A stretch of 64,000 nucleotides of DNA from Pleurocapsa minor HA4230-MV1. Lineage in GTDB: Bacteria > Cyanobacteriota > Cyanobacteriia > Cyanobacteriales > Xenococcaceae. Location of the stretch: the NCBI GenBank assembly GCA_019359095.1, contig JAHHHZ010000021.1, positions 201,327 through 265,326 of the forward strand, in the 5' to 3' direction. Shown here piece after piece: positions 3,194 through 42,935 of the stretch (positions within the stretch are counted from its first letter, which is position 1; every line of letters begins with the position of its first letter). The translations under genes were made by a program, and so were the position numbers. The notes below the pieces were generated by a model that saw nothing but the letters and a program-made list of their open reading frames with translations, was not told the DNA's origin and searched no databases.

Positions 3194-3223
3194 TTTCTAA
3201 CTGCAACTAGTTTTGAGTAGTAA

Positions 3224-6308: not shown

Positions 6309-6349
6309 ATAGTTATTGATTGTCAGCTAGGCACAACTGATACTCAATC

Positions 6350-6626: not shown

Positions 6627-6733
6627 ATGATTATTTAGTTAAAAAACAAAAAAATACACAACCTAATTATTTTATACAGGTTGCATATTTTAACTGGATC
6701 TTTATAATTCAAATAAATTTTATCTAGTTTTAT

Positions 6734-7048: not shown

Positions 7049-7163
7049 ATTTATTATTTGTGTCCTCGACTAACTTGTTTTATTTTGACAGATTTTAATA
7101 GTAACTTCAGGGTGGATAACCAGATATCTATCTTTCGGTAAATACGATTAAAAAATTACTAAA

Positions 7164-7865
7164 TCAAAGTAAAAAACTCAGAGCTTTTAGACCTATTCGT
7201 CTTTGTCTAACACTTTTTGATAGTAGTCCATCTAGCAAATGATAGATAATCCAAGATTTAAGCTGTTGAGTTATGAGTATGCTTAAAACTGATTTCCCGA
7301 ATAAAAAAAGACCTAAGCAAATTAATAGCTTGGCTAGATAGTTGAGTGGTATTAAATACCAAATCAAAATGTTAATTGTAATTATAGCGATCGCCATCAA
7401 ACCAGATAATAACCAGTAATACCAAGCTTTTGATTTAAAGGGAAGTTGCGCCAGGATTTCGCCAACGAGCCAATAATGAGCTTGAGATATTTGATTGAGT
7501 AGTGGGGGATTATGGATCAATTCTTGCTTGATTTGCTGAGAGATTTTACCTTCTAGGTCGATGACACTGCGAAACAAAACATGAGAAACTTGCTCGTTGT
7601 CAAATAAATATTCTGTGGAAAAAGTTAAGCAAGATTGCGCCAGAGTTGAACGCGGTGAGCAGGGTAAATTTAACAGCGCATAGTGACGTAGATTAGCTAA
7701 ATTAGTCGCAGATAGAACTAATTTAGTCTCGGTAGCTTGATTCTGGGCGATTTGCTCCAGTAGTTTGGCATCCAGACAAAAACAAACTCGATCGGGAATA
7801 GTTACTTGACGGCTGATTCTGGTTAATTTAATTTGAATACATGAATTTAGAACTTCGTTGCTCAT
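7164..7865 (-). CDS. hypothetical membrane protein
   Basis: 233 residues, family not recognised. The first ~150 residues are soluble-looking. Two adjacent hydrophobic segments follow at about 155-200 (ending in LAKLLICLGLFLFGKSVLS), then a short basic tail (SVRQRRIGLKAL). Its ATG overlaps the stop of the upstream gene by 4 bp (ATGA), so the two are translationally coupled. The start lies within a heptamer tandem repeat (AATGAGC units). It probably forms a complex with the upstream product. Confidence 0.6.
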   Translation of the reverse strand: MSNEVLNSCIQIKLTRISRQVTIPDRVCFCLDAKLLEQIAQNQATETKLVLSATNLANLRHYALLNLPCSPRSTLAQSCLTFSTEYLFDNEQVSHVLFRSVIDLEGKISQQIKQELIHNPPLLNQISQAHYWLVGEILAQLPFKSKAWYYWLLSGLMAIAIITINILIWYLIPLNYLAKLLICLGLFLFGKSVLSILITQQLKSWIIYHLLDGLLSKSVRQRRIGLKALSFLL

Positions 7866-8563
7866 TGCTCATTGCTCACTGTTGAATGGCGTGCGACCAA
7901 AGAAAGCATAAATTTGACTAACCCGCGCCACTGTTGTTCTCCTGTGGCGGTTGAGCGTTCGTGTAACTGTAAGAGTAAATGGCGATCGCTGCGTCCTAAA
8001 ATTGCTTGAGAATAACGGTTCACAATTTTACCGTTGAGTTGTAACGATGTTTGAGCGTACGTCGTATCCGTAATATCATGCTGACGGGATGAACTTTGCA
8101 AAATGTGATCGCGCCGATCTAAAGCAATTTTCCGTTTGTTTAACTGCTGCAAGATATTAATAAACTGACGTTCCTTTAATAGTTGATTAACCTGTGACAT
8201 CGAGTTACGACTACTAGAAATTGGTTCGGGTAATCTCGTGGGAATATTCTCCCAATCAACGTTTTGCTGACTTAAAATCGGTAAATCGCGTTTGATTTCA
8301 GCTACTAGCAGGCGGTTATATTGCGTTGAACTAGCATCTATTAGCAAGAGACAATAGGCTAATTCTAATTGTCGGCGTAACTGCAAATAGCGATTCCACA
8401 AAGACAGATCGATTGCTGATTGTTCTAAAAAGGAGCGAGAGAGACCATAAATAGCTTGGTAAACTTCCCAAGGGATAAAGATCTCATCGACAATTTCATC
8501 CACAATCACAGTGCTGATTTCCACTGTAGTAATATTTGTCAGCATTTGATTCAAAAACGGCAT
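7862..8563 (-). CDS. hypothetical protein, coupled to the downstream membrane protein
   Basis: 233 residues, not recognised. It looks helical and soluble, rich in Gln, Arg and Leu, with long helices such as LWNRYLQLRRQLELAYCLLL and a basic stretch (KRKIALDRRDH). No signal peptide or catalytic motif is visible. It is the first gene of a two-gene unit with 4 bp overlap and starts just inside the right copy of the 275 bp repeat, which must therefore contain or adjoin its promoter. Confidence 0.6.
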   Translation of the reverse strand: MPFLNQMLTNITTVEISTVIVDEIVDEIFIPWEVYQAIYGLSRSFLEQSAIDLSLWNRYLQLRRQLELAYCLLLIDASSTQYNRLLVAEIKRDLPILSQQNVDWENIPTRLPEPISSSRNSMSQVNQLLKERQFINILQQLNKRKIALDRRDHILQSSSRQHDITDTTYAQTSLQLNGKIVNRYSQAILGRSDRHLLLQLHERSTATGEQQWRGLVKFMLSLVARHSTVSNEQ

Positions 8564-8587
8564 TTAAAAAGGATGTGATCCTGAATT

Positions 8588-8861
8588 CTGTTGGTATACA
8601 ACATTTATGGGTAACGAGTAACGAGTAACGAGTAACGGGTAATAGAGTTTCAGCGCAATTATAGCTATTCGTAACAACGTTAGGGCATTTTTGAAATACT
8701 ATTTCCTATTTCCTATTTCCTACCTCGCGCATTCCCTTGCGTCTTACGCCGACGCGGGGTCGCTCGTCTACTTACGAGCCAATTACTATTGATGTCCTAA
8801 TCTAACTTTGTACGACTATAAACTGCTTACCACAAAGTTATTTTTGAGAATCGGATTTAGT
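8588..8861 (+). repeat. ~275 bp direct repeat, right copy, containing a palindromic element
   Basis: Second copy of the block at 6350-6626, same orientation, highly similar over most of its length. It differs by a tandem heptamer expansion (GTAACGA units near 8612-8640) and by loss of one small GC-rich repeat in the centre. The inner element with inverted ends lies at 8660-8820. The whole stretch 8564-8866 between genes is this repeat. Confidence 0.75.
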
Positions 8862-8866
8862 CTAAT

Positions 8867-9685
8867 TTACGACTCAGGATCTGTGTCAACTGCTTCGTTT
8901 TGTTCTTCCCAATTGTGCCAAGTTTCTTTGGCTTCTTTGATGTTGAGAGATTTTAGATCGAACACTCCAGTTTTGACATCAGGCTCTTCATCTAACCACT
9001 CACTCCAGTCTGGTTGATTTTCAGGAGTTGCCGTTTCTTCTAACTCGGCACCATCTTCAAGATCGGCCAAAGACAGTAGATCATTAACCATCTGCTCATC
9101 TTCAGCATTTAAAGCAGGTAATTGAGGTTCAAGATTATTTTCCTCAATCTTGGCTACAGGCTGATTTGTCTGATTTGCTCTGTGGTTGCCTACTTTACTA
9201 GCTTCTAAGGCATTGGGCATGCCATAAAGATTACCAGTATTAGCTTGCGTTGGCAAAGATTCGCGGGCGACATCTGCTGCAATATCTACCCAATTCGCAT
9301 GTGTTGCTTGCTGCTGTTGAAAAGACGACATCAGTTGGAACATCTTTTGCAAACTGATCAAATTGTGTTGAATTGTTTGGTGTCCTTGAGTTACCTGCTG
9401 AAGGTGGAATTGCTTAATTTCCGAATAGCGATCGCCCGTTAGTTTTTCGCCAATTTCATTTTCAACTTTTCCTTCAATTAAATTGATATGAGTATGGAGA
9501 TAGTTATCCATCTGAACATTTTCTGCATCGATCTTCTGTCCATCGGCGGTGACTATTTTTGTCGTAATATTTAACTCTGGTGCATTGCTCATCGCCACCA
9601 GAAACGCTTCGCTAATATTACCTGCTTTAATTGCTTGTTTAAAATCTTCGCTGGATGTCATCGTTATTAATCTTCTAGAGGTCAT
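8867..9685 (-). CDS. hypothetical protein, paralogous to the next gene
   Basis: About 272 residues, family not recognised. The N-terminal half is helical with a block around residues 75-115 (ENEIGEKLTG, then EIKQFHLQQVTQGHQ) that also appears in the 112-residue neighbour. The C-terminal half is very acidic, with Trp-rich motifs (PDWSEWLDEEPD, ETWHNWEEQNEA), and is probably disordered. No signal peptide or cysteine. The start is uncertain among ATG 9685, ATG 9661 and a TTG just upstream; 9661 (MTSSEDF) matches the start of the paralogue best. Confidence 0.6.
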   Translation of the reverse strand: MTSRRLITMTSSEDFKQAIKAGNISEAFLVAMSNAPELNITTKIVTADGQKIDAENVQMDNYLHTHINLIEGKVENEIGEKLTGDRYSEIKQFHLQQVTQGHQTIQHNLISLQKMFQLMSSFQQQQATHANWVDIAADVARESLPTQANTGNLYGMPNALEASKVGNHRANQTNQPVAKIEENNLEPQLPALNAEDEQMVNDLLSLADLEDGAELEETATPENQPDWSEWLDEEPDVKTGVFDLKSLNIKEAKETWHNWEEQNEAVDTDPES

Positions 9686-9739
9686 ATCCAATCGAGCCAG
9701 CTTACCTATCTAAAATTTAAATACGATCTGGATTAATCA

Positions 9740-10078
9740 TCAATTAATTAAAATCTGTCGCATCTGTTCTAGGTTGGCAAGATTCTTGATTAAAGATTCT
9801 TGTCTTTGGCGTACTTGCTCAATATGCCATCGTTGTAATTCGCCATAGGTAGGATTGTCAATCAATTTAAGATCAATTTCATGTTCTACTGTTTGGTTGA
9901 GGAGATCGATTTGAGTATGAAACCTACTGGTTGATGCCGATTGCTCTAAATGATCTAAGTCCCAGCTATCGACATAAGTACTTACCTCAACCTCCACTAT
10001 TTCACTCATGGCAATGGTTAGAAGCTGAAAGATTTCTTGAGCTAAAGATGGGGCTGTAGTTTGTCTATTTGATGTCAT
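9740..10078 (-). CDS. hypothetical protein, short paralogue
   Basis: 112 residues. It shares with the downstream gene the arrangement MTS start, an IAMS motif, then E(H/N)EI-x-x-KL and a W/F-H-x-x-QV-x-Q helix, but lacks the acidic tail. It is the first of two same-strand genes with a ~55 bp gap, so probably one transcript. The helix pattern suggests a coiled or bundled structural or scaffolding protein. No function is known to me. Confidence 0.6.
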   Translation of the reverse strand: MTSNRQTTAPSLAQEIFQLLTIAMSEIVEVEVSTYVDSWDLDHLEQSASTSRFHTQIDLLNQTVEHEIDLKLIDNPTYGELQRWHIEQVRQRQESLIKNLANLEQMRQILIN

Positions 10079-10120
10079 GAGTAATGCATTTTAACTAATC
10101 AGCTTCGTTTAAAGCAAAAT

Positions 10121-10205
10121 GTAGGTTGGGTTTCGTGCCTCAACCCAACGATTAAAAAATTTTGTTGGGTTTCACTATCGTTCTACCCAACCTACCAAGT
10201 CTCTA
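10121..10205. repeat. GTAGGTTGGG palindromic element, copy 1
   Basis: The ends are a perfect inverted repeat: GTAGGTTGGG at the left and CCCAACCTAC at the right. Inside is a second small palindrome bounded by GTTGGGTT and AACCCAAC. A second copy is at 23812-23895, where this inner segment is flipped. Both copies continue into CAAGTCTCT. This element is a common type of short interspersed repeat in cyanobacteria. Confidence 0.75.
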
Positions 10206-10254
10206 AGCAACTAGGCAGTGTGTGAATTTAACTAAAATTTAATTAAATACGCCA

Positions 10255-10866
10255 TTAATTCCAGAAATTTGTCGCATTGTAGCCCAAGCTTTCCATCATT
10301 TGATATAGCATAGGCAGACTTAAACCAATAACATTGCTGTGACAACCAACTATTTTCTCGACAAACATACCGCCTTTACCTTCTAAAGCAAAGCTACCCG
10401 CGCAATTGAGGGGTTCACCAGTAGCAATATAGGCTTCAATCGTGCGATCGCTAAGATCGGCAAAATAAACCTCAGTCACACCACAGCGAACAATTTGTCT
10501 TTGTTGCTCCAGGTCAATTAAAGCATGACCTGTATAGATTTTACCCATTTTACCGCGCATTCCTCGCCAACGGGCGATCGCTATCTGGGGTGATTCTGGC
10601 TTACCATAAATGCGATCGTTGATCGTCAGTACCGAATCGCAACCCAAAACCAAAGCACCTTTGAACTGTGGCGCTACAGTTTCCGCCTTACATCTGGCTA
10701 AAGTCTGTACTAGTTCTGCTGCATCTTCAAGCTGAATTTGATCTTCATCAAAATCGCTCTTACAAACAATCGGCTCAATCCCCACCATCCGCAGTAATTT
10801 TAGACGAGCAGGGGAAGCTGAAGCCAAAACGAAAGGCGGGGATGTAGATGTCTTCTTGGCGCTCAT
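10255..10866 (-). CDS. Maf-like nucleoside triphosphate pyrophosphatase
   Basis: 203 residues with the Maf fold. [12 protein letters not shown] (residues ~14-25) is the conserved LASxSPRR nucleotide-binding motif. GCDSVL supplies the catalytic Asp, and [12 protein letters not shown] follows the usual kPxd-x-x-A pattern. Family members hydrolyse non-canonical or modified nucleoside triphosphates to monophosphates as house-cleaning enzymes and have been linked to septum control. It is cytoplasmic and ends in the weakly conserved tail YNATNFWN. The gene lies 43 bp downstream of the CyanoP gene's start side and could be cotranscribed with its neighbours. Confidence 0.9.
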
Positions 10867-10909
10867 AGACAGTTAATGATTCAATTGCTCTCAAATAGGA
10901 TCGTGAAGA

Positions 10910-11464
10910 TTAACGCACAGTAAAGGATTTAACCGCCACCTCAAAACTATCCTTAACTGTATCCCAGCGTTTTTCAGGCGTTGAGAGATTAAAAGTAAAA
11001 ATCTTGCCTCTACTTACCGCCACACTAGCAATATTGTGTCTTGTCCCTTGTTCGGGTATTTCTTCTTCATACTCTAATAGATAATACTTCTTATCTTTAT
11101 TTTCTCTGGCTTCAGCACGAATAAACTCGGCTTCTCTTTCACCTTTAGGAGTACTATTAATTACCTTAAGTAGACGATAGCCAACCTCAGAAGGACTACC
11201 CAAATCCTCTAGAGTTTTACCATCAGGAACTTCGTTAATAATGACGCTCAGATTTTCAGTTCTTTCGACCAAATCGCGAAAAACCACATCGACAGTTTTT
11301 CTGGCAGAAGTGCCTAGATTAACAGGAATCCAACCGTTAGGATAGAGAAACTCATACCCCTTACTCGTATTAACATAGCTTTGTAATCCAGTTACCCCTG
11401 TAGAACAGCTTGTAATGACTAAACTTAAAACAATTAATAATCCAGCGCAAAACGACTTAAACAT
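10910..11464 (-). CDS. CyanoP (PsbP-like) thylakoid lipoprotein
   Basis: 184 residues. The N-terminus is a lipoprotein signal (hydrophobic stretch, then VITSC with Cys20 as the lipidated residue). The rest is a PsbP domain, recognisable from the opening SYVNTSKGYEFLYPNGW and the closing WDTVKDSFEVAVKSFTV. CyanoP sits on the lumenal face of thylakoids and takes part in early photosystem II assembly. It fits well beside psb34 on the same strand upstream. The two are separated by ~150 bp containing hairpins, so they may be separate transcripts. Confidence 0.9.
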   Translation of the reverse strand: MFKSFCAGLLIVLSLVITSCSTGVTGLQSYVNTSKGYEFLYPNGWIPVNLGTSARKTVDVVFRDLVERTENLSVIINEVPDGKTLEDLGSPSEVGYRLLKVINSTPKGEREAEFIRAEARENKDKKYYLLEYEEEIPEQGTRHNIASVAVSRGKIFTFNLSTPEKRWDTVKDSFEVAVKSFTVR

Positions 11465-11543
11465 TTTTGTTTAGTTACCTCTATAAATCAGCTTTTTGTG
11501 ATATTTGTATCTTTTATTTTTGATTATCTCACGACACAGAAAT

Positions 11544-11572
11544 GCCCCAGGCTAAATTGTTTGCCCAGGGGA
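11544..11572 (-). terminator. hairpin downstream of psb34
   Basis: On the minus strand CCCCTGGGC pairs imperfectly with GCCTGGGG around a ~10 base loop, about 40 bases after the psb34 stop. No strong T-run follows. A second AT-rich hairpin (TTAAGATT / AATCTTAA, 11591-11616) overlaps the stop codon itself. One or both probably end or stabilise the psb34 message. Confidence 0.4.
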
Positions 11573-11612
11573 CATCTACCGTCATTTTTCTTAAGATTAA
11601 ATGTTTAAAATC

Positions 11613-11792
11613 TTAACTTACAGTTGAAGCATATACTGCAACAGCTACAACACCACCTAAAAGCAAAAATGCGAGGACACCAAAAATTGCATAGTTGCGT
11701 TTTTGCGCCGAATCTGGCTCTTCTGCTGTATACATTTGAGGTTCTCTAGCAAAATTATTTAGTAATCCACCTTCTTCTTCTGTATAAGGCAT
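11613..11792 (-). CDS. psb34: Psb34, small photosystem II assembly protein
   Basis: 59 residues, read from ATG 11792 to TAA 11613. The start MPYTEEEGGLLNNFAREP is the Hlip-like N-terminal box shared by Psb34 proteins, including NNFA-x-EP. A single membrane helix (about residues 35-55) follows, then a short tail ending STVS. Psb34 binds PSII assembly intermediates near CP47 and is thought to exchange with high-light-inducible proteins. It is too short to appear in an ordinary long-ORF search. The CyanoP gene downstream supports a PSII assembly context. Confidence 0.85.
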   Translation of the reverse strand: MPYTEEEGGLLNNFAREPQMYTAEEPDSAQKRNYAIFGVLAFLLLGGVVAVAVYASTVS

Positions 11793-11903
11793 AAATTTTA
11801 TTTCCTCTAAATTTTTATTTGTAAACCTTAATAAATAGTAATCTTATTTATCCGATCGCACAATCAATCATGCGATCGCATTTAATCTTTTTAAGAGCAA
11901 AAG

Positions 11904-13358
11904 TCAGTTTGAACTTAGCTGAAGCTTAACCTTAGTTTCGTCAGATATGGCAGATATTTCCTGATAACCAAGTTTTAAAAATAAGTCAGGCTGAAGTGCA
12001 ATAGTACCATTAGCAATCAAACCGTTACCCTCAGAACTTGTGCCATAGCCTAGCTCAAAGTTCCATTGATGTTGGTTTGGACTAACTTGAGTCTGAGAAT
12101 GTATTTTTGCGCCCCAGACTATAAATTCTTGCTGCTCTTTCTTGCCTGAAACATTCTGATATTTAACAAAAGCAGAGCATTGAATCCCAAAATTGTCTGA
12201 ATCAAGCAGTTGACTGCTCAGTTCTAAATTACTTTTATTTTGATTACCATTGTAGGTAAATTGTAAACCTCCAATCTGAGAATTTAATTGCCACTGTAAA
12301 TTTTGCTCATGATCTAAAGCTGCGGTGGCAGAAAGAGAAAAGTAATCGTTGTGTATTGCTACTTTTATTCCTGCGCTGTAATATTTTGCTTTAGTATTTC
12401 CTCTGGCAACTAAAGTTAAACCAGGATAAACACCCCAATTCACATCAAACTTTTGTTTTTCAGCATCGCTGTAGTAATTAGCTACAAAATTGGAACTAGG
12501 TTGAAAACGAATATGAGTATGAAAATCTATGCCAGATTCTTGCGCCAACAGAGAAATAGTAGCTTTAATTGGTAAGATATCGCCGTCGTAGGTTAGCTGG
12601 GTAAAACCAACTAAAGCATTTTCATAAACAAAACCAACCCCCATGGTTAGCTGTTGGGTGATGCCATGATGATAAGTAATTCCAGCACGAAAATCTTCAA
12701 ATTCTGGGACAGCATTAAAACCTCGATCGAGAGTTACTGGCTTGGCTAAGTTGTGATTTCCCCCGCCTGAAACAGTGAGACTGGCACTACCTAAAGCTAA
12801 TGCAGGAGCAGAGTTGGTGTAGTTTAGCGACGATGGGTTTGTCTGCTGCTCATGTTTTCCCCAATGTTCAATGGTAGTTATACCCCAGTATCGATGTTGA
12901 TTCTTACTTGGCCAAAAAGTTTTTTGGAAGCCTAAGACTAAATCATTTTGATACGACTGATGAATATAAAGTTGCTGTGGCAAAGATGGTAATTGGTCAC
13001 TTGTTTGCTCCGAGGAATTAGGCAAAGTCCACTCTTGGCGATGAGGCTCCCCTAAAGGATATGCGTAGCGGTATGCTTTAGCACTAGCTTCGCGTCGCGC
13101 CTCCGCTGCGCGATCGCAAAAATTGAGTACACAATCAGTTTTAGGAGATATTTGGGGGAAGAAATAATTAGTTTGTAAAGGAACACTAGAACTAGAAAAG
13201 ACAGTTTGTTTCAACTGCTGATTAAATTCTGTGTTGGCGGACACTATCTGCCTTTGTTGGGGCGATCTTGGTTTAACTGGAGTTGCCAGAGTGGAATTAG
13301 CGCAGCTAAGACAGCCGAAAATACCACCAAAGAGGACGTTTGCTACAATGGCTTTCAT
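11904..13358 (-). CDS. predicted exported beta-rich surface protein with in-frame repeat insert
   Basis: 484 residues, family not recognised. Residues 1-25 look like a signal peptide (hydrophobic core, then cleavage near STLATP). From ~130 on, the protein alternates short amphipathic strands with Gly/Asn/Gln turns, as expected for an outer-membrane beta barrel or surface beta protein. Residues 82-104 (DRAAEARREASAKAYRYAY and a few more) are translated from a copy of a dispersed nucleotide repeat (13051-13118) that also occurs in non-coding DNA elsewhere. The insert keeps the frame open. Gene is divergent from the NTF2-like gene. Confidence 0.65.
   Translation of the reverse strand: MKAIVANVLFGGIFGCLSCANSTLATPVKPRSPQQRQIVSANTEFNQQLKQTVFSSSSVPLQTNYFFPQISPKTDCVLNFCDRAAEARREASAKAYRYAYPLGEPHRQEWTLPNSSEQTSDQLPSLPQQLYIHQSYQNDLVLGFQKTFWPSKNQHRYWGITTIEHWGKHEQQTNPSSLNYTNSAPALALGSASLTVSGGGNHNLAKPVTLDRGFNAVPEFEDFRAGITYHHGITQQLTMGVGFVYENALVGFTQLTYDGDILPIKATISLLAQESGIDFHTHIRFQPSSNFVANYYSDAEKQKFDVNWGVYPGLTLVARGNTKAKYYSAGIKVAIHNDYFSLSATAALDHEQNLQWQLNSQIGGLQFTYNGNQNKSNLELSSQLLDSDNFGIQCSAFVKYQNVSGKKEQQEFIVWGAKIHSQTQVSPNQHQWNFELGYGTSSEGNGLIANGTIALQPDLFLKLGYQEISAISDETKVKLQLSSN
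13051..13118. repeat. dispersed GC-rich repeat inside a coding region
   Basis: CCTAAAGGATATGCGTAGCG, then GGTATGCTTTAGCACTAGC, TTCGCGTCGCGCC and TGCGCGATCGC. The same building blocks make up the non-coding repeats near 2060, 6480, 21280, 49590, 52200 and 55130. Here they lie in frame in the surface-protein gene. Confidence 0.75.
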
Positions 13359-13705
13359 TCATGTATGGGAGAGATAGAAGAAATTAAAAAGTAATTACGA
13401 CTCGCTAAGATGACGCCAAGCAAACCAAAACTTTGATTTAATTTGACTGTTAGTCAAATTGGTATTTTTGTAGTTGTCAAAAACTACATGAGTAACAAGA
13501 ATATTATCGAGTTTTTTACTTTCTGTACTCTTATATTCTGCCCATTTTTGCTGGAAATTAAACTAAAGTTTATCTAAAGAATAATTGCTCAAGGATTAAA
13601 CGAGACCCAGCCTGGGTTTTAGCGATCCTAAGCAATCTCTTCGGGGATTAAATTCGCTGATTAGCCGATTAAATGTCAACCATTAAGTTCAACAACAATA
13701 GAGAT
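13359..13705. promoter_or_regulatory. divergent promoter region with palindromes
   Basis: About 350 bases between divergent genes. At 13440-13460 there is a perfect inverted repeat, AATTTGACT-GTT-AGTCAAATT, which could be an operator for a dimeric regulator. At about 13605-13622 ACCCAGCCTGGGT followed by TTTT forms a small hairpin. Neither is tied to a known regulator. Confidence 0.4.
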
Positions 13706-34310: not shown

Positions 34311-35321
34311 ATGCAGTTTATCGATTTAGCAGAAGTAGAAGTAATCGCTGGTAAGGGTGGTGATGGCATGGTAGCATTCCGTCGGGAAAAATATGTTCCT
34401 GCGGGAGGCCCTGCTGGGGGAAACGGTGGCTGGGGTGGATCGGTAATTTTGGTAGCCTCAAATCGTCTCCAGACTCTGTTAGATTTTCGCTATGCTCGGA
34501 TTTTTAAAGCAGAAGACGGCAAAAAAGGTGGCCCGAATAATTGTACGGGAGCTAAAGGAAGCGATCGCCTGATTGAAATTCCCTGTGGTACTCTAATTAC
34601 AGATGCGGATACGGGAGAATATATTGGCGATTTAACCGTGGACGGGGAAACCCTCTGTGTGGCTGCTGGCGGTAAAGGCGGTTTAGGTAATAAGCATTTT
34701 TTAAGCAATAGCAATCGCGCTCCAGAATATGCCTTACCAGGATTGGAAGGAGAAATCAAACGTTTACGTCTAGAATTAAAGCTCATTGCTGAAGTGGGCA
34801 TTATTGGTTTACCCAATGCTGGGAAATCAACCTTAATATCTTCTTTGTCTTCTGCTAAACCCAAGGTAGCAGACTATCCGTTTACCACCTTAGTCCCCAA
34901 TTTAGGCGTGGTGCGTAAACCCACAGGAGATGGAACTGTATTTGCAGACATTCCTGGCTTAATTTCGGGCGCATCTGAAGGAATTGGCTTGGGTCATGAC
35001 TTTTTACGGCATATCGAACGAACTCGTGTTTTGTTGCATCTGATTGACGCTACAGCCGATAATCCCATTGCCGACTATCAAACGATTCAACAGGAATTAG
35101 AAGCCTACGGACACGGGTTACCCGAACGACCACAAATTATTGCCTTTAACAAGATTGACGCGGTAGATAATGAGACTTTAGAATTCATTACCTCTGAACT
35201 ACAAGAATTAACTTCGGTGCCGCTTTTTCATGTCTCCGCAGTGACTCGTGCAGGCTTAGATACCTTAACGCAAAAGATCTGGACAATTTTGGATGCCGAG
35301 TCAGCATCCGTGTTGATCTAA
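34311..35321 (+). CDS. obgE: GTPase ObgE/CgtA
   Basis: 336 residues. The N-terminal Obg fold (1-158) is glycine-rich (AGGPAGGNGGWGG, GGKGGLGNKHF). The G domain has G1 GLPNAGKST, switch II DIPGLI, G4 NKID and a SAV G5. The C-terminal OCT domain found in some bacteria is absent. Obg is a ribosome-associated GTPase needed for 50S maturation and linked to stringent control. It stands alone, with a repeat tract upstream. Confidence 0.95.
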   Translation: MQFIDLAEVEVIAGKGGDGMVAFRREKYVPAGGPAGGNGGWGGSVILVASNRLQTLLDFRYARIFKAEDGKKGGPNNCTGAKGSDRLIEIPCGTLITDADTGEYIGDLTVDGETLCVAAGGKGGLGNKHFLSNSNRAPEYALPGLEGEIKRLRLELKLIAEVGIIGLPNAGKSTLISSLSSAKPKVADYPFTTLVPNLGVVRKPTGDGTVFADIPGLISGASEGIGLGHDFLRHIERTRVLLHLIDATADNPIADYQTIQQELEAYGHGLPERPQIIAFNKIDAVDNETLEFITSELQELTSVPLFHVSAVTRAGLDTLTQKIWTILDAESASVLI

Positions 35322-35516
35322 TTCTTTCCCGACAGCTTTTAGCAGTGCGTCAAATTACTATTGCTATTGAATCAAGTAAATGGGTCATGTCAGGCAAAAA
35401 GTTCTGTGCCTAACTATGCCCGTTAAGTCACAATTATTTTAAATTTGCTATATTACGAATCCAATTTATGTCAGATATTTTGAATCGGTACTTTAGCAGT
35501 TAACAAAAGTAAACTG

Positions 35517-35786
35517 TCAATAATTTCCTGCACTAATAAAAGCGCTGCTACTAGAAACAATGCTTTCCTCTGTTTCAACGACTTGGGCGTTGAATTCAAC
35601 ATTTAGATAGGGATTATCTCCCTCATTTAAACCAGTAATTGAAAATGAAGCAGAACCATTAGGTGTAGAAGCAACACCTTGGAGAGAAGCATATTGAGAT
35701 TTTCCGCCAACTACTGTTTGAGCTTCAAAGCTGTTTATATTCTTAAGTACTGCTTCTGGTTCAATATTTTTAATTAATAATCCCAT
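35517..35786 (-). CDS. double-glycine leader peptide 1 (putative export substrate)
   Basis: 89 residues. Residues 1-28 are a leader ending in VVGG (MGLLIKNIEPEAVLKNINSF, then EAQTVVGG). Gly-Gly at -2/-1 with hydrophobic residues at -3/-4 is the cleavage pattern of C39 peptidases. The predicted mature part (from KSQYASLQG) is ~61 residues, rich in Ser, Asn, Glu and Val, with no cysteine, so it is not a lanthipeptide or disulfide bacteriocin. A C39-peptidase transporter lies divergently ~1.1 kb away. I infer it is a secreted peptide; activity is unknown. Confidence 0.65.
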   Translation of the reverse strand: MGLLIKNIEPEAVLKNINSFEAQTVVGGKSQYASLQGVASTPNGSASFSITGLNEGDNPYLNVEFNAQVVETEESIVSSSSAFISAGNY

Positions 35787-35920
35787 CTATCTACTATTAT
35801 TAATGGATTAAGCTTTACACGAATACAGAATTTTGCCACGCACATTACACCAAGCAATGTCTGCAACCTATTCGTCTAATTGGCAGACTTGTCGCATCTA
35901 AATAAAAGAGCGAAGAAATC

Positions 35921-35954
35921 TACTATCAAAATCTTAAGCAAGATTCTGATAGTA
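35921..35954. terminator. strong hairpin between the two leader-peptide genes
   Basis: TACTATCAAAATCTT pairs with AAGATTCTGATAGTA (14 of 15) around a 4-base loop (AAGC). It lies just past the stop of peptide 2 on the minus strand, ~60 bp away. The sequence after it is only mildly T-rich, so it may be a terminator, attenuator or message-stabilising element that sets the ratio of the two peptides. Confidence 0.55.
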
Positions 35955-36012
35955 AATGCAACTATCTAAAACTAAGTAAGGTTCAAATTAAGTTGCTAAA
36001 GTAACTTGTGGC

Positions 36013-36255
36013 TTACTCACCCATTGTCAAAGACCCAGCCAATAAAGCTGAATGATTTGCAGGCTCATCTATATCGACAGTTTCACCTATAAGGTCAAAA
36101 CTGATATCAGCGTTAGCAGCACCTACACCACCATCCTTAAAGATAAAGTCAAATTTAATGCCAGCACCACCGCCACCAATAACTTCATTGGCCGCAGCAA
36201 ATTTAACTTCAGAAAGTACATTTTCAGTTGCTATTTCAGAAATATTGATTTTCAC
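36013..36255 (-). CDS. double-glycine leader peptide 2 (putative export substrate)
   Basis: 80 residues. The leader MKINISEIATENVLSEVKFA then AANEVIGG ends in a Gly-Gly site with Val/Ile at -4/-3, like peptide 1. The mature part starts GGAGIKFDFIF and is ~52 residues, acidic (several Asp/Glu), without cysteine or lysine clusters. The two peptides differ in sequence, so they could act as a pair. It is first in order on this strand, with the hairpin after it. The AT-rich region up to 36910 separates it from the transporter. Confidence 0.65.
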   Translation of the reverse strand: MKINISEIATENVLSEVKFAAANEVIGGGGAGIKFDFIFKDGGVGAANADISFDLIGETVDIDEPANHSALLAGSLTMGE

Positions 36256-36910
36256 AATTCTTCTCCAGTAAATTTAAATTGGGATAATTTATGATATTGA
36301 CAGGCAGAAGTAATTTATTGGTTTCGATCTATATCTTTTTGAACAAGTTGAACAAGGTTGATATTTATTTGTTCACACCAAAATCAAACAATCAGAATGT
36401 TGACTTATGGAGTGGATTACAATGCTTGTCAACATCACAAAACAGACAATATCATATAACAACTACTTCGCGCAACAGTTTTTTTTTAAATACGTAAATT
36501 TTTAAAAATTACCTAAATATTGGTGTTGAAAGTTACCATAAAGCACTATTTAATTATTTAATTTTTGTTTAAATACAATTCGCTTAACAACGCCAGATTT
36601 TAAAAAATATTGCTCTCAAGCCTTTAAATAAAAAGCTTGATGACTATTTAAATAATTTATCATTAATTGAATCTTTAAATAATTTTCAAAAATTAATAGT
36701 AATTTATATTTAATGTAATATATTTTAACAGCCAAAATCTTCAATATTTCTTTAAGATTATTTTATCAAATAGCAAAATAAAGCAATAAGAACAAATAAT
36801 TTAGTCTAAAAATTAAAATTAATCTTTATTTATTCTAATAAATTATATTTAATGACCCGAAAGATTTTATGATGTTCTCAATCGAAAAAGCATGAGCTTA
36901 GAACTATTGC
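36256..36910. promoter_or_regulatory. AT-rich divergent control region of the export cluster
   Basis: 655 bases between the peptide genes (minus) and the transporter (plus). It is very AT-rich, especially after 36500, where runs of A and T are dense. The short frames on it (36052-36294, 36291-36497) have poor composition and were not accepted. It presumably holds both promoters. No operator is convincing. Confidence 0.5.
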
Positions 36911-39900
36911 ATGGTTGTTTCACGAAAAATCTTAGAAGATCGGCTGATTAAAACCTTGGGACGCGGTTGTTTGCCAGAGCTGTCCAAAATTATCAATCGG
37001 GTTGACTTATTCGAGCCTGAAAAAGGTCAATTATTTTGGAGATCGCAAGATGCAGAATCTACAATAGGTATAGTTCTCCAAGGAAAAGTAAGAGTGATCG
37101 ATCGCGACAATAACTTGGTAATCTCGTTACCGCCAGGAACATCATTTGGCGAACTGACCTTATTTGCCGATGCTGATTTTCAACCTTATTCGATTAGAGC
37201 TTCCAGCAACACCTTACTCTGTTATGTAAATGCTGAAGTACTATTACCAGTGATCGAACAATATTCAGCAGTACGGGAGCATCTATATTCACAGGCAAAG
37301 CTGCAAGATTTATTGTTACTTAACTACAAAAATGGTCATGGCGATCGCCGAGAAACTCAGAATTTACTAGAAATCCTTCCTTTACTGGAAAATCATCAAC
37401 TGTCCCCTGGAACTGTCCCCGACTCAGTTTGGCAAAAACAGCAGTTGTGGTTGCTGCGTCAGGGAGAAATATTGCACTCTTCTGGTCAAAAATTAACCCC
37501 AGGAAAAACTTATGCTCTTGAGAGCTTGCCACAAACTGGAGCATGGTTGGTCACCAATCCCGTCGATTTATATACTTTAAGTCAGGCATCTGCCCTCAAA
37601 AAACCAACGCCAGCCAGCGATCTAGATGCAGACTTAGCTCTTGAGCAGTCGCTACAACAGAGATCAGCCAATCTCGATGGTGAAGCAATCGAGCCAGAAA
37701 GCAGTGTCAAAACAATTACCAAATCGGTAATAGGGCAAATGCGATCGCCTCAAGCTAAAACCAAGACGAAAACCAAAGCTCAAAAAACTGTTAGTAAAGC
37801 TTACTTTCCTAGTCCTAGCTTACAGGTTAGTCATTTATGGCAACAAATCAGCCGACGCTATCCTTTCTTTTTACAACAGAGTGCCTCAGACTGTGGCGCA
37901 GCTTGTCTAATCATGGTCGGGCGTTATTGGGGGAAACGTTTTAATGTTAACCGCTTACGCGATTTAGCTGGGGTAGATCGTAACGGTGCTTCTTTAAATG
38001 GTTTGGCTGTTGCAGCTCAAAGTATCGGCTTTACAACTCGAATGGTAACGGCGAGCCTCGACATTTTGGCACAGCAAGATCTACCAGCGATCGCCCATTG
38101 GGAAGGCAGACACTATATCGTAGTTTACAAAATAACTCGCAAACAAGTAATCATATGTGACCCAGAAATTGGGCAGCGTAGTTTAAGTCACGCGGAATTT
38201 AAATCTGGCTGGACTGGATATACATTACTGCTACAACCAACGATACTACTCACTAAAACTCCAGAAACTGCTACTTCGTTAGAGCGATATTTTGAGTTAA
38301 TTAAACCCTATCGCACCATTATTGGGGAAATTGCGATCGCTTCGATCGCCATTCAAATATTTGGGCTGATCGTGCCACTGTTGACTCAGCTGCTGTTAGA
38401 TCGAGTCGTGGTGCAACGCAGCGATATTACCCTGACGGCGATTGGTTCTGGATTACTGATCTTCGGTTTGTTTCGGATTGCCATGACAGGGTTACGCCAG
38501 TATTTAGTAGCTCATACCGCCAATCGTGTCGATCTCGCTCTGATTGTGGGGTTTGTCGATCGCGCGTTTCGTCTGCCCTTATCATTTTTTGAGTCTCGCT
38601 ATGTCGGAGATATTATCTCCCGAATTCAAGAAAATCGTAAAATACAAAGATTTTTAACTGGCGAAGCTCTGACAGTTATTCTCGATTTACTGACAGTTTT
38701 TCTTTATCTCGGGCTGATGTTATGGTACAGCTGGAAATTGAGTCTGATGGTCGTAGCAATTATCCCATTTTTTATTTTAATGGCACTAGTAGCTACGCCT
38801 TTTTTAAAGAGAATTTCACGCGAGATTTTTAATGCCTATAATCAAGAAACCAAATATTTAATTCAATCCCTGACGGGAATTCGGACGATCAAATCAATGG
38901 CGGTAGAGCAGCTAGTCCGTTCCAATTGGGAAGAATTATTTAGCGAGTCGATTCGGAAAAACTTTTCTGGTCAACTAATTAGTAATAATTTACAAATTGT
39001 TAGCTCTCTAATTCAAACTTTAATTACTGTTGGGTTGCTCTGGTTTGGCGCTTGGCAAGTAATTCACGACGAGTTGACGATCGGACAACTAATAGCGTTT
39101 AACATGCTGCTGGGTAACGTTATTTCCCCCTTTAATCGATTGACAATGCTGTGGAACCAGCTACAAGAAGTTTTAATCGCTGTCGAGCGAATTGAAGATG
39201 TGATCGATTCTCCTTTAGAAGAAGATTTACAAAATAATTTGCGCCAATCCCTACCACCAATGATGGGACATGTGCGGTTTGAAAATGTCACCTTTCGTTA
39301 TCAAGCACAAAGCGACATTAACATTCTGGAGAATATTTCTTTTGAAGTATTTCCAGGGCAAATGGTCGCATTAGTTGGTCGCAGCGGTTCTGGTAAAACA
39401 ACAATCTCTAAAATGATTTTAGGTTTTTATACACCCTTAGAGGGTAAAGTGCTAATCGACGGCTACGACGTGAATGGTTTAGCTTTACATTCTTTACGAT
39501 CGCAAATTGGCGTTGTCGATCAAGATACTTTTCTCTTTGGCGGTACAATCCGCGAAAATATCAGTTTGAGTCGTGCCGATGCCGCTTTAGAAGAGATCGT
39601 TAAAGCTGCCCAACAAGCAGGCGCTCATGACTTTATTCAAGAATTACCCATGGGTTATGAGACTCAAATTGGCGAAGGAGGCGGAATGCTCTCTGGTGGA
39701 CAAAGACAAAGAATTGCGATCGCTCGCGCCCTATTGGGGGATTCTCGCTTATTGATCTTTGATGAGGCTACTAGCAATTTAGACACGGAATCAGAACGCA
39801 TCATTCAAAATAACCTAAGTACTATTGCTCGCAATCGAACCACGATAGTCATTGCTCATCGTCTCTCTACAGTGAGAAATGCAGATTTAATCTTAGTGTT

Positions 39901-40003
39901 AGATCGCGGTGTTGTAGTAGAAAGCGGCTCTCACGCTGAATTAATGAGGAAGCGCGGTCAATATTATTATCTAGAGCAACAACAAATGACAATCGCTCAT
40001 TGA
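36911..40003 (+). CDS. C39-peptidase ABC exporter with cNMP-binding-like modules
   Basis: 1030 residues. Residues ~30-130 are a cyclic-nucleotide-binding (CRP-like) fold (GIVLQGKVRVIDRD, PPGTSFGELTLF), followed by a second degenerate copy (~165-225). The C39 peptidase follows: SDCGAAC with catalytic Cys328, HWEGRHYIVV with the His, and DPEIG with the Asp. Then come the membrane domain (~450-740) and an NBD with Walker A GRSGSGKTT (near 822), signature LSGGQRQR and Walker B LLIFDEATS. It should cut leaders after Gly-Gly and export the peptides. The architecture resembles the cyanobacterial HetC group. Four adjacent genes support the role. Confidence 0.9.
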   Translation: MVVSRKILEDRLIKTLGRGCLPELSKIINRVDLFEPEKGQLFWRSQDAESTIGIVLQGKVRVIDRDNNLVISLPPGTSFGELTLFADADFQPYSIRASSNTLLCYVNAEVLLPVIEQYSAVREHLYSQAKLQDLLLLNYKNGHGDRRETQNLLEILPLLENHQLSPGTVPDSVWQKQQLWLLRQGEILHSSGQKLTPGKTYALESLPQTGAWLVTNPVDLYTLSQASALKKPTPASDLDADLALEQSLQQRSANLDGEAIEPESSVKTITKSVIGQMRSPQAKTKTKTKAQKTVSKAYFPSPSLQVSHLWQQISRRYPFFLQQSASDCGAACLIMVGRYWGKRFNVNRLRDLAGVDRNGASLNGLAVAAQSIGFTTRMVTASLDILAQQDLPAIAHWEGRHYIVVYKITRKQVIICDPEIGQRSLSHAEFKSGWTGYTLLLQPTILLTKTPETATSLERYFELIKPYRTIIGEIAIASIAIQIFGLIVPLLTQLLLDRVVVQRSDITLTAIGSGLLIFGLFRIAMTGLRQYLVAHTANRVDLALIVGFVDRAFRLPLSFFESRYVGDIISRIQENRKIQRFLTGEALTVILDLLTVFLYLGLMLWYSWKLSLMVVAIIPFFILMALVATPFLKRISREIFNAYNQETKYLIQSLTGIRTIKSMAVEQLVRSNWEELFSESIRKNFSGQLISNNLQIVSSLIQTLITVGLLWFGAWQVIHDELTIGQLIAFNMLLGNVISPFNRLTMLWNQLQEVLIAVERIEDVIDSPLEEDLQNNLRQSLPPMMGHVRFENVTFRYQAQSDINILENISFEVFPGQMVALVGRSGSGKTTISKMILGFYTPLEGKVLIDGYDVNGLALHSLRSQIGVVDQDTFLFGGTIRENISLSRADAALEEIVKAAQQAGAHDFIQELPMGYETQIGEGGGMLSGGQRQRIAIARALLGDSRLLIFDEATSNLDTESERIIQNNLSTIARNRTTIVIAHRLSTVRNADLILVLDRGVVVESGSHAELMRKRGQYYYLEQQQMTIAH

Positions 40004-40034
40004 AATCAATCCCTTGATTCTTACTCTATAACCT

Positions 40035-42038
40035 ATGACCAATCACAATTCTTCTATATCCCACCTGGAACCCAAACCCAATCTTACCGAACAGATTCGG
40101 ATTTTGATCGTGGACGATCAGCATTTTGCTCACATTTTTCTCGAGAAAATCCTGATGGGCGATCCCGAATCAAATCTCAAAGTCATCGGTACAGCTAGTA
40201 ATGGTCAAGAGGCTGTGCAACAGGTAGAATTCCTCCAGCCAGATGTCGCGATCATGGATCTAGAAATGCCCAAGATCGATGGAATTACTGCCACCAAGAT
40301 GATCGCGCAAAAATTTCCCGACTGTAAAGTTTTGGTTTTTAGCAGCTATGACGACGCCAAACATTTACATAATGCTTTGCAAGCTGGAGCCACAGGATAT
40401 TTACTCAAAAATACTCCTAGCGAAGAACTGAGAAAGTCAATTCGGTTGGTCAATAAAGGTTATTACCAGGTTAGTCCAGGATTATTAGCCAAAGCTTTTG
40501 CCGAGCGACAAGAGAATGACCCAGCGCTGGTGGGAATTGAGTCGAGTTCATCATCGCCGACACAAACCCAGTTACCTTCTGCGCCAAATTGTTCCAGTTC
40601 TACTCAAGAATTGCTCAATACATTTCCCCGCGTTTGGAGTAGAGGCTTGGTGTATCTATTGCTAATTTTTATAGCGATTGGTATACCTTGGACTATATTG
40701 GCTCGCATAGATGAAACGGGTACTGCTAGGGGCAAAATCGAACCAAAAGAGAAAACGCTGACCATAGACGCTGCCGTAGGTGGGAAAGTAACCGAGGTTC
40801 GAGTCAAAGAAGGTCAACAAGTTAAAGCAGGACAAGAATTACTGGCGATCGAATCGGCAGCAGTTACTTCTCAACTACAGCAACAGCGAGAAAAGTTAGC
40901 AGGGCTAAAAAATCAACTTATTCAACTAAAATCCTTAAAAGACCGACATCTACAGGGAATTATTTCGCAAAAACGACAAAATCAAGCCCAAATAATCGAA
41001 CAACGAGTCAAACTACAACAGGCAGAGCAAAGTATCGCATCTTTACAAGCCTTATCTAATCCGCAACAGCAAGAAAAGCGCGCTAGTCTAGAGCAAGCCC
41101 AAAAAGCGATCGAAACTAGTCAAGCCGTCTATGAGTTGGCTCAAATTCGCTTACGCTCGGCAAAAGAGAAAGTTCCCCGTTACCGTCAAGTCTATCGAGA
41201 TGGGGCAATTTCTCAAGACCGCCTGTTAGAAATAACTCAACTAGCCAATGAAGCGCAACAAGAGCTAGCAAAAGCCAATGCGGAGTTAGATACAGCAAAA
41301 TCTAGTTTAAAAGAAGCACAGAATAGTTATCAGACTTTGCTGGAAGAACAAACGGCTGGAAACCAGCAAGCAAAACTTCGTTTGTCAGAAGAACAGGGCA
41401 ACTATAATTCTCTTTTGCAAACAAATCATCTAGCTCTTTTACAAAATCAAGAGAAACTCAAAGACACAGAAGCAAAAATTGCGACTCTCAACGGAGAAAT
41501 TGCGCAAACGGCAAGTCAAATGAAATCTTCCCAGTTTGAGTTAAAGCAATACTCAATTAAAGCTCCCGTAACTGGAACTATTTTTCAGTTTCCCATTCAA
41601 AATGCGGGAACTACCGTCCAGGCGGGAGATACAGTCGCAGCGATCGCTAAAGGGGTTAAGCAGGATGCTTCCAAGTCAAGTTTAGTGTTGCGAGCAAAGA
41701 TGCCAAGTTCGCAAACGGCTTTTTTGAAAACGGGATTGCCTGCTAAAATTAAGCTCGATGCTTATCCCTTCCAAGATTACGGCATAGTTGAAGGTCGCGT
41801 TAGTTGGATTTCTCCAGACTCGAAAGTCGCTGACCAACAGCAATCAACGCAGCAGCAAGCTGAATTTTTTGAATTAGAAATAATTTTAGACCAAGCCTCT
41901 ATCAACACTGCGGGTAAACCAATTACCATAAATCCAGGTCAGACAGCAAGCGCAGAAATTGTGATTAGACAACGCCGCTTAATCGATTTCTTTTTAGAAC
42001 CTTTTCAAAAATTAAGAAAAGGCGGTTTAGAACTTTAG
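40035..42038 (+). CDS. response-regulator receiver fused to HlyD-type adaptor
   Basis: 667 residues. Residues ~17-140 are a NarL-type receiver: RILIVDD, phospho-acceptor Asp75 (AIMDLEMP) and GYLLKNTP. There is no DNA-binding domain. A low-complexity linker (SSSSSPTQTQ) precedes a membrane helix at ~205-226. From ~240 it is a HlyD/membrane-fusion protein: a split lipoyl half (GKVTEVRVKEGQQVKAGQEL), a long coiled coil (~270-490), then the second lipoyl half (KAPVTGTIFQFPIQNAG). The receiver is cytoplasmic and the adaptor periplasmic. It follows the transporter by 31 bp. Phosphorylation could gate assembly or export, which is inference. Confidence 0.9.
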   Translation: MTNHNSSISHLEPKPNLTEQIRILIVDDQHFAHIFLEKILMGDPESNLKVIGTASNGQEAVQQVEFLQPDVAIMDLEMPKIDGITATKMIAQKFPDCKVLVFSSYDDAKHLHNALQAGATGYLLKNTPSEELRKSIRLVNKGYYQVSPGLLAKAFAERQENDPALVGIESSSSSPTQTQLPSAPNCSSSTQELLNTFPRVWSRGLVYLLLIFIAIGIPWTILARIDETGTARGKIEPKEKTLTIDAAVGGKVTEVRVKEGQQVKAGQELLAIESAAVTSQLQQQREKLAGLKNQLIQLKSLKDRHLQGIISQKRQNQAQIIEQRVKLQQAEQSIASLQALSNPQQQEKRASLEQAQKAIETSQAVYELAQIRLRSAKEKVPRYRQVYRDGAISQDRLLEITQLANEAQQELAKANAELDTAKSSLKEAQNSYQTLLEEQTAGNQQAKLRLSEEQGNYNSLLQTNHLALLQNQEKLKDTEAKIATLNGEIAQTASQMKSSQFELKQYSIKAPVTGTIFQFPIQNAGTTVQAGDTVAAIAKGVKQDASKSSLVLRAKMPSSQTAFLKTGLPAKIKLDAYPFQDYGIVEGRVSWISPDSKVADQQQSTQQQAEFFELEIILDQASINTAGKPITINPGQTASAEIVIRQRRLIDFFLEPFQKLRKGGLEL

Positions 42039-42078
42039 TCGGCTCGAAATACAATATTATTTTTGATTATTTTGGTTT

Positions 42079-42855
42079 ATGTCAAAATCTCTGCAAATTT
42101 CCTCAGCCGAAATTCTTGAGCGCCTGATCTTATCATGTCAAATACCTTCAGTAGTGAAGGAAATCGTCCGTCATCAAATTATCGATCGCGCCGTTCAAGC
42201 AGAGGGAATAGTAGTAAGCGATCGCGAATTACAGCAAGCTGCCGATCAATTTCGCGTCAAATACGATCTTTACGATCCACAGACAACTTGGCATTGGCTC
42301 AACAAAAATCATTTGACAGGAGATGATTTTGAAAAACTAATTTACGAATCGATAGTTTCTGCCAAACTGGTTCGGCATCTGTTTGACGATCGTGTCGAAG
42401 CTTTTTTCTACGAACGTCAGCTAGATTATACCCAAGCAGTTTTGTACGAAGTGCTGTTTACTGATTTCGATACGGCAATTGAAGTATTTTATGCGATCGA
42501 AGAACAAGAAATTAGTTTTGTCGAGGTTGCTCGTCAATACATTCAAGAACCAGATTTGCGTCGCCGATATGGTTATCGAGGAATAATCTCCCGTAAGGCT
42601 ATAAATTCGGCAATTTCAGCTGCCGTGTTTGCTGCTACTCCTCCTCAAGTACTCAAACCAATTGCGATCGGTCAAAATATTCATCTGATTTTAGTTGAAG
42701 AAATTATCGAGCCACAATTAGACAAACAGTTACGCGGTCAAATTCTGACTGAATTGTTTGCTGCTTGGCTGGAAAAACAGCTATTGCAGTACTCGATCGA
42801 AATTGAATCTGAATTACGTCAAGTTCCTTCTCAGGCAGAAATCTCATCCAGTTAA
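42079..42855 (+). CDS. parvulin-like (SurA/PpiC) peptidyl-prolyl isomerase
   Basis: 258 residues, no signal peptide visible. The N-terminal ~110 residues are SurA-like helices (IVRHQIIDRAVQAEGIVVSD). The C-terminal half resembles a parvulin domain (ISFVEVARQYIQEPD, GYRGIISRKAI, then VLKPIAIGQNIHLILVEEI), with some active-site positions changed, so it may act mainly as a chaperone. It is the third gene of the cluster, 40 bp after the adaptor. Such isomerases often accompany cyanobacterial peptide exporters. It may keep precursors unfolded. Confidence 0.8.
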   Translation: MSKSLQISSAEILERLILSCQIPSVVKEIVRHQIIDRAVQAEGIVVSDRELQQAADQFRVKYDLYDPQTTWHWLNKNHLTGDDFEKLIYESIVSAKLVRHLFDDRVEAFFYERQLDYTQAVLYEVLFTDFDTAIEVFYAIEEQEISFVEVARQYIQEPDLRRRYGYRGIISRKAINSAISAAVFAATPPQVLKPIAIGQNIHLILVEEIIEPQLDKQLRGQILTELFAAWLEKQLLQYSIEIESELRQVPSQAEISSS

Positions 42856-42935
42856 TAAGTCGATATTGAAAAAATCGATGATAATATAATAGTTTGCAGT
42901 TTAAACATATCAAGACAATCAAATCTAGACTAACT

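Follow-up and report, generated by a model that had tools for sequence, protein, structure and literature searches.

To our knowledge, the EbfG1-4 proteins of Synechococcus elongatus are the closest tested case to the locus described here, a 7.5 kb peptide-export unit lying within 64,000 nucleotides of Pleurocapsa minor HA4230-MV1 DNA (contig JAHHHZ010000021.1), a stretch that we refer to as a whole as the window. Biofilm formation in S. elongatus requires the double-glycine (GG) motifs of EbfG1-4 and the peptidase cysteine of PteB (PMC4997328), and a test system showed amyloid behaviour of EbfG1-3 (PMC9981879). Among the bacteriocin clusters of cyanobacteria, those of groups I, II and VI have a long-type exporter and also SurA; both HlyD and SurA are presented as proteins of a single domain (Wang 2011, PMC3140520). 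The window cassette is of this known cyanobacterial kind, that of groups I/II (PMC3140520), with a regulator built into its conduit. We propose, at a probability of roughly 0.6 for the explanation as a whole, that the unit processes and exports two acidic, Cys-free peptides of the matrix type, and that it does so with a receiver-gated HlyD adaptor. The wider claim, in which two-component signalling acts on the secretion conduit itself, through a receiver that was attached to distinct adaptor lineages of Pleurocapsales-type cyanobacteria or transferred from one to another, is tentative, and we rate its chances as somewhat below even. Two-component control of tripartite pumps and of type 1 secretion has been described as control of gene expression (PMC8277102, section 4.4). 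No description of a receiver-HlyD fusion was found in searches of open-access papers, with relevant passages inspected in PMC8277102, PMC12487129, PMC13125312 and PMC8939145.

The host genome (G000) comprises 5.64 Mb in 36 contigs. Between obg (34311-35321) and rpsO (at about 42936), two small minus-strand genes are followed by a divergent plus-strand operon of three genes, encoding an ATP-binding cassette (ABC) exporter with a C39 peptidase, the adaptor and a parvulin-like protein, with intergenic gaps of 31 bp (exporter-adaptor) and 40 bp (adaptor-parvulin). An earlier note on this DNA had proposed this divergent arrangement about an AT-rich control region, and had read it as a self-contained unit of leader, protease, pump, adaptor and chaperone; both proposals are borne out, the second most strongly by comparison with empty sites.

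35324..42864, no strand: inserted unit between obg and rpsO, with borders set by blastn against two empty sites (left border accurate to within a few bases)
36256..36910, no strand: AT-rich divergent intergenic region, presumed to hold the promoters of both arms; 655 bp, 23% GC

Two same-genus genomes (G002 and G005) have an empty site in which obg stands directly before rpsO, with 190 bp and 123 bp, respectively, from the last aligned base of obg to rpsO. Because of this empty site, the five genes are one 7.5 kb insertion, present at the occupied site and missing from the empty ones; a stepwise arrival is possible. Left-flank homology to the empty sites ends at 35323 or 35326, that of the right flank resumes at 42865, and the right border falls nine bases past the parvulin gene. 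The rpsO gene was located in all 20 genomes, and as much as 1.5 kb of flanking sequence was inspected in each; obg was absent from the inspected flanks in the 17 genomes other than these two and the host, which is uninformative for the insertion site. In eight longer stretches, obg was found at rpsO only in G002 and G005, while one more showed a 39% GTPase match some 3.5 kb off. No mobile-element ends were seen in the edge stretches compared, which share only one 7-bp word, taken as chance.

The adaptor, which the earlier note had named as such, is indeed an HlyD protein; what had been overlooked is a receiver domain at its N-terminus, making it a receiver-HlyD fusion.

40035..42038, plus strand: receiver-HlyD (REC-HlyD) adaptor, 667 aa, assigned by Pfam, Foldseek and an AlphaFold model with a mean predicted local distance difference test score (pLDDT) of 78
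40095..40454, plus strand: receiver domain of the adaptor, residues 21-140 (PF00072 over residues 23-136, E 1e-25, 90.5 bits against a cut-off of 30.2)
40635..40700, plus strand: single transmembrane (TM) helix of the adaptor, residues 201-222 in the model, with a hydropathy peak at 205

The phosphorylation residues of the receiver are D27, D28, the phospho-acceptor D75, S103 and K125. In the model, the receiver is followed by a low-confidence linker, the TM helix and an HlyD body with helices of 114 and 111 residues; the model was built from 18 sequences, and its relative domain placement is unreliable at a predicted template modelling score (pTM) of 0.37. The TM helix at 201-222 would leave the receiver in the cytoplasm. 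Foldseek matched the N-terminus to the receivers of VraR and DesR (target TM-score, TMt, 0.90-0.94), and the body best to EmrA and MacA, with a large root-mean-square deviation over the long hairpin.

A phosphorylation switch on the adaptor is probably the likeliest role of the fusion, being the most economical function because the receiver is intact. Across 26 fused receivers, the window's included, an acceptable complete residue set was found in 19, the Asp phospho-acceptor is kept in 24 and the Lys in all 26. These counts speak against the view that the receiver is a docking or oligomerisation module only, for instance one that makes adaptors dimerise or cluster at the membrane, with no phosphorylation switch. 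That view draws on three points. A residue of the set has been lost in 7 of the 26 (in two of them the phospho-acceptor Asp itself), and because of these losses phosphorylation-independent docking is possible; many receivers of the host genome belong to membrane or coiled-coil proteins that have no DNA-binding part; and the seven gene families found at three or more of 24 receiver loci include no histidine kinase partner, in a survey not aimed at kinases of single loci. Taken together, we regard docking alone as unlikely, if deserving of serious attention.

The fusion is not peculiar to the window. Matches to the adaptor at E<=1e-100 were obtained in 15 genomes among 40 relatives (host included). 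Of the 25 family genomes, 14 have a receiver-HlyD adaptor next to a C39 exporter, a lower bound since only E<=1e-100 matches were mapped; the adaptor of the 15th matching genome (G017) is without a receiver. By BLAST to the window receiver, the fusion is found in 16 of 80 named loci (L068-L080, L082, L083, L090), and the other 64 show none. Relatives of the adaptor occur in Pleurocapsa, Xenococcus, Hyella, Waterburya and other cyanobacteria, and the carriers of the fusion include Chamaesiphon polymorphus, Lyngbya confervoides and a Hydrococcus metagenome-assembled genome. Across the class, 13 of 194 genomes match the adaptor at E<=1e-70, with the receiver part covered in the host, in G201 and in one of the two matches of G116. 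On plasmids, one of 53 matching records (Chondrocystis) covers residues 16-654 at 26% identity, and its annotation names HlyD only. Of the 95 distinct adaptors collected, a sample in which the fusion is over-represented, 26 carry it; in the host genome itself, receiver-HlyD proteins also occur in three further lineages of HlyD, all distant (L023, L024, L027). This spread bears on the idea that the locus is an ordinary group I/II cyanobacterial bacteriocin cassette in which the fusion is a functionless local accident. The remaining parts do match the published cassette (PMC3140520); however, the fusion recurs in distantly related HlyD lineages with its site mostly kept, and we consider such an accident very improbable.

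The HlyD tree, built by a quick method from 69 of the 95 adaptors (all 26 with a receiver and 43 of the 69 without) and containing long branches that meet, needs eight changes of the receiver label, six of them forced by supported branches, and it pairs L024 and L027 each with a receiver-less adaptor. The receiver tree, in which few branches are firm, needs four changes with only one forced, and clusters the L023 and L024 receivers with that of the window (92/84). Because these two receivers group with the window's, the receiver tree suggests that a receiver module moved between adaptors. Several gains, losses or origins of the fusion, rather than one, are likely, though not proven.

Further receiver arrangements were noted along the way. 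Inspection by eye of the host genome revealed many NarL-type receivers on membrane proteins that do not bind DNA (L150, L151, L156-L158, L160-L166); several combine the receiver with a coiled coil or linker and a C-terminal TM helix, one with a TM helix and a Wzz-like part (L151) and one with several TM helices (L166). Among 16 stand-alone receivers inspected in the same manner, a LuxR-type helix-turn-helix (HTH) tail is present in just L153, L154, L167 and L168. At L063 (G002:C99, 8816-10806), the receiver and the HlyD part are encoded by different open reading frames (ORFs), representing either a broken gene or an assembly fault.

The candidate cargo of the exporter is encoded by the two small genes of the minus-strand arm.

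35517..35786, minus strand: precursor 1, 89 aa; leader residues 1-28 (35703-35786), ending FEAQTVVGG^KSQ (^ marks the predicted cut); predicted mature peptide of 61 aa, Cys-free
36013..36255, minus strand: precursor 2, 80 aa; leader residues 1-28 (36172-36255), ending FAAANEVIGG^GGAG; predicted mature peptide of 52 aa, Cys-free

The earlier note had located both genes, with leaders ending in VVGG and VIGG, and had called their products Cys-free and acidic; these readings hold, the cores containing 6 acidic and 1 basic residues (precursor 1) and 9 acidic and 2 basic residues (precursor 2). Precursor 2 begins at a GTG start preceded by GGAGAAG. Two such GG-leader ORFs exceed chance: in 2000 dinucleotide shuffles of 35322-36910, two GG-leader ORFs of at least 75 aa were obtained in none and at least one in a single shuffle, compared with two in the real gap, the leader pattern for this test having been written after the ORFs had been seen. 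Codon usage also supports the coding of both small ORFs, with log-odds per codon of 0.27 and 0.39, compared with 0.30 for rpsO and with -0.20 and -0.17 for two plus-strand ORFs of the same gap. The two leaders are of equal length and identical at 10 of 28 residues; with the initial Met and the GG left out, their substitution score was reached in 52/20000 shuffles and their identity in 175/20000. No similarity between the two cores is evident by eye.

The published C39 leader-binding signature is Leu(-12)-X3-Glu(-8)-Leu(-7), and the cargo has an upper limit of about 10 kDa (PMC8277102). The window leaders appear to fit the binding positions in part, with Ile (precursor 1) or Val (precursor 2) at -12, Ala at -7 and Val at -4 in both, and Glu at -8 only in precursor 1; the precursor sizes of 80 and 89 aa suit the cargo limit (PMC8277102). 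No Pfam or NCBIfam family was reached at its curated cut-off by either precursor, and at E<=1 the only matches were MAGE_N (0.097) and an OPRTase model (0.047). These two resemble chance matches, and assignment of the precursors to a known bacteriocin type was rejected. No NHLP, Nif11, CTB or bacteriocin precursor model of either database appeared at E<=1, and the profile comparison of the leaders with bacteriocin and Nif11/NHLP families, to which the earlier note had looked, thus came back empty. A class V lanthipeptide reading was likewise rejected: the cores are Cys-free, class V genes were not found in the window, and there is no synthetase among the five proteins.

The plus-strand arm supplies the predicted processing and export machinery.

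36911..40003, plus strand: peptidase-containing ABC exporter (Pfam), with a cyclic nucleotide monophosphate (cNMP)-type domain at residues 37-118, a C39 peptidase at 317-444, then the ABC transmembrane part and ATPase of a half-transporter
42079..42855, plus strand: SurA/parvulin-like protein (TIGR04500, E 3.5e-22, 79 bits against a cut-off of 180; PF00639, 26.2 bits against a cut-off of 21.7)

The exporter domains PF00027, PF03412, PF00664 and PF00005 all exceed their Pfam cut-offs. The catalytic residues C328, H401 and D417, together with Q322, are invariant in 19/19 aligned exporters (those of the window and of receiver-bearing cassettes in the host genome and its relatives), and the catalytic residues support C39 processing. 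The earlier description of this protein as a C39 ABC exporter is thus upheld, and needs only the addition of the cNMP-type domain, which had been missed. In that domain (36911-37300), Gln and Pro occupy what we take, by CAP numbering, to be the positions of the phosphate-binding Arg82 and Ser83 of CAP, and canonical cyclic AMP (cAMP) binding is doubtful because of these replacements. The parvulin-like protein resembles the TIGR04500 peptide-maturation family, with a strong E-value and a score under the model's cut-off. It is probably cytoplasmic, because hydropathy, the sole measure applied, reveals no hydrophobic signal or TM stretch.

Related cassettes place this gene set in context. In the 24 receiver loci, window included, the families recurring in at least three are the exporter (24), the adaptor (24), parvulin (21), an HTH protein (20), HopA1 (11), an LxmK-like kinase (10) and a 2-oxoglutarate (2OG) oxygenase (3). 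By tblastn over 107 loci, in which 12 places are counted twice, the HTH gene is present at 82, and the HopA1 and LxmK-like kinase genes at 48 each; the cassette kinase scores 67.8 bits to LxmK against a cut-off of 315. The HTH protein, which resembles the N-terminus of an IS630 transposase and is encoded just upstream of the exporter (L020, 7127-7702), has possibly been co-opted as a regulator; the window unit lacks it. A paralogous receiver cassette, L020 (G000:C21:9000-28000, 2953-13445), has HopA1, LxmK-like and 2OG-oxygenase genes, along with a precursor whose Gly-Lys repeat core ends in a Cys-Gly stretch and which is a clear member of the leader family described below. No counterpart of this paralogue's HopA1, LxmK-like, oxygenase or HTH neighbours was found by tblastn in the window (best E 0.022), nor does the inserted unit contain modification genes. 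The window cassette seems to be a reduced version that has no modifying enzymes, which agrees with the absence of Cys from its cores.

Many related cassettes contain small ORFs, often in tandem, that share the leader MANIxISEL...DSESFLNEL...GG, and a same-genus short form is without the middle part; only ORFs of 40-220 aa were scored. Ten leader-family precursors gave weak NCBIfam matches only, none at cut-off, and the four scanned against Pfam gave none at cut-off. The same-genus cassettes L059-L061 have Cys-free, Tyr/Asn/Gln-rich cores, and no HopA1 homologue was found in their fetched stretches. By eye, their tandem GG precursors recall curlin-type repeats; the one scanned has no Pfam curlin match. 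At L021 (G000:C32:1-16000, 107-1281), four near-identical tandem precursors (MIISDLQYIE...ATGG) lie by an exporter with a receiver-less adaptor.

A leader model was trained on 29 leaders of other loci, with a match defined as E<=1e-3; the training omitted loci L021, L022, L025, L027, L064 and L066, one hydrophobic ORF, and ORFs without an ATG or inner MSK start. For an out-of-sample count, 12 of the 80 named loci were dropped as duplicates, and the 59 of the other 68 that hold both exporter and adaptor were counted (among them L099 and L102, apparently near-identical loci of a single genome). The model detected a leader ORF in 34 of the 59, namely in 29 of the 34 cassettes with a HopA1 homologue and in 5 of the 25 without. 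Among the other receiver cassettes, such an ORF occurs in 15 of 23 fetched stretches, 12 of the 15 being training loci. Of all ORFs in the window, the two candidate precursors come first and second under two of three models, and second and third under the remaining one.

Several observations weigh against our proposal. No leader-model ORF was found in 25 of the 59 out-of-sample cassettes or in 8 of the 23 receiver cassettes; by this measure, the small GG ORF expected by the earlier note beside related exporters was found at only part of them. For the window ORFs themselves, the leader-model E-values are 0.13-1.1 (window alone) and 3.4-25 (all loci), and their scores are equalled by 16 to 87 of 273 to 484 other GG ORFs, some with the look of genuine precursors. 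Leader similarity, to which the earlier note had also looked, is weak: the two window leaders resemble each other, but against five same-genus short leaders, with Met and GG fixed, shuffles do as well in 462/2000 and 1321/2000 cases. The leader model was rejected as proof of family membership, its scores being weak and both window leaders failing this shuffle test. Homologues of precursor 1 were found neither in 39 relatives nor in 337 other genomes of the class, and precursor 2 had none in the former and one weak match (E 0.0046) in the latter. The inserted unit contains no outer-membrane channel gene. Furthermore, L057, a cassette without a HopA1 homologue, has cores with 6 and 2 Cys, and no observed feature separates a matrix from an antimicrobial function.

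Two other explanations draw on these points. The exporter might serve precursors encoded elsewhere, such as the Gly-Lys repeat precursor (G000:C21:9000-28000), the two adjacent ORFs being remnants. The host genome has nine C39-domain matches and a clear leader-family precursor by the paralogue L020, and the window leaders do no better than shuffled ones against the same-genus leaders; yet the two ORFs are intact, lie inside the inserted unit, show codon bias and have leaders that resemble each other. We consider this improbable. The products could instead be bacteriocins or signals to neighbouring cells rather than matrix peptides, as the exporter class serves bacteriocins, Wang 2011 names such clusters bacteriocin clusters (PMC3140520), and the HopA1- and LxmK-like genes of related cassettes are typical of modified peptides. 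We find this doubtful, albeit far from negligible: the unit has no further gene that could confer immunity, the bacteriocin, NHLP and Nif11 models are silent, the products are Cys-free and acidic, and the tested cyanobacterial GG proteins act in biofilm (PMC4997328, PMC9981879).

We infer that export of two surface or matrix peptides would proceed as follows. Both precursors would be made from the minus-strand arm, whose ORFs carry a coding signal, and the parvulin-like protein may keep them export-competent. The C39 domain is predicted, from its intact catalytic residues and the leader anatomy, to bind the 28-residue leaders and cut after the GG. Driven by ATP, the exporter and the HlyD adaptor would move the cores out by way of a TolC-type channel whose gene lies elsewhere. 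An unlinked histidine kinase could phosphorylate D75, and the receiver would then gate assembly or activity of the conduit, as its intact site and recurrence suggest; export itself, beyond transcription, would in that case answer to a signal. Once outside, the products probably act as cell-surface or matrix peptides, by analogy with the EbfG proteins. Should this be true, an adaptor with a receiver would allow finished precursors to be held and released on a signal, amounting to a post-translational secretion switch, and, if phosphorylation alters export, it would offer a handle on adaptor-exporter coupling. The clean empty site provides a natural with/without comparison for the role of the peptides.

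Compared with the described groups I/II, the window cassette shares the CAP_ED-C39-ABC exporter, HlyD, rotamase/SurA and small GG precursors nearby, and differs in that its HlyD is not a single-domain protein (Wang 2011, PMC3140520). It also differs from group II in having no extra modification gene, such genes being present in its paralogous cassettes (PMC3140520). Genes for class V lanthipeptide enzymes of the HopA1 and LxmK types occur in related cassettes, whereas the window unit, with its Cys-free cores, has neither. With the EbfG1-4/PteB system of S. elongatus, in which a biofilm matrix role has been shown, it shares small GG-motif proteins, a C39 exporter and cores without homologues; the likeness drawn here is one of gene anatomy, and the accounts of that system that were consulted mention no receiver-HlyD protein (PMC4997328, PMC9981879). 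As in the adaptors HlyD, EmrA and MacA, the window adaptor combines a TM helix, lipoyl and beta-barrel parts and a two-helix hairpin (114 + 111 residues in the model); unlike them, it bears an N-terminal receiver, predicted to lie on the cytoplasmic side. That receiver shares its fold and phosphorylation residues with regulators of the NarL/LiaR type (VraR, DesR, LiaR), in which the output is DNA binding, whereas here a secretion adaptor stands in its place.

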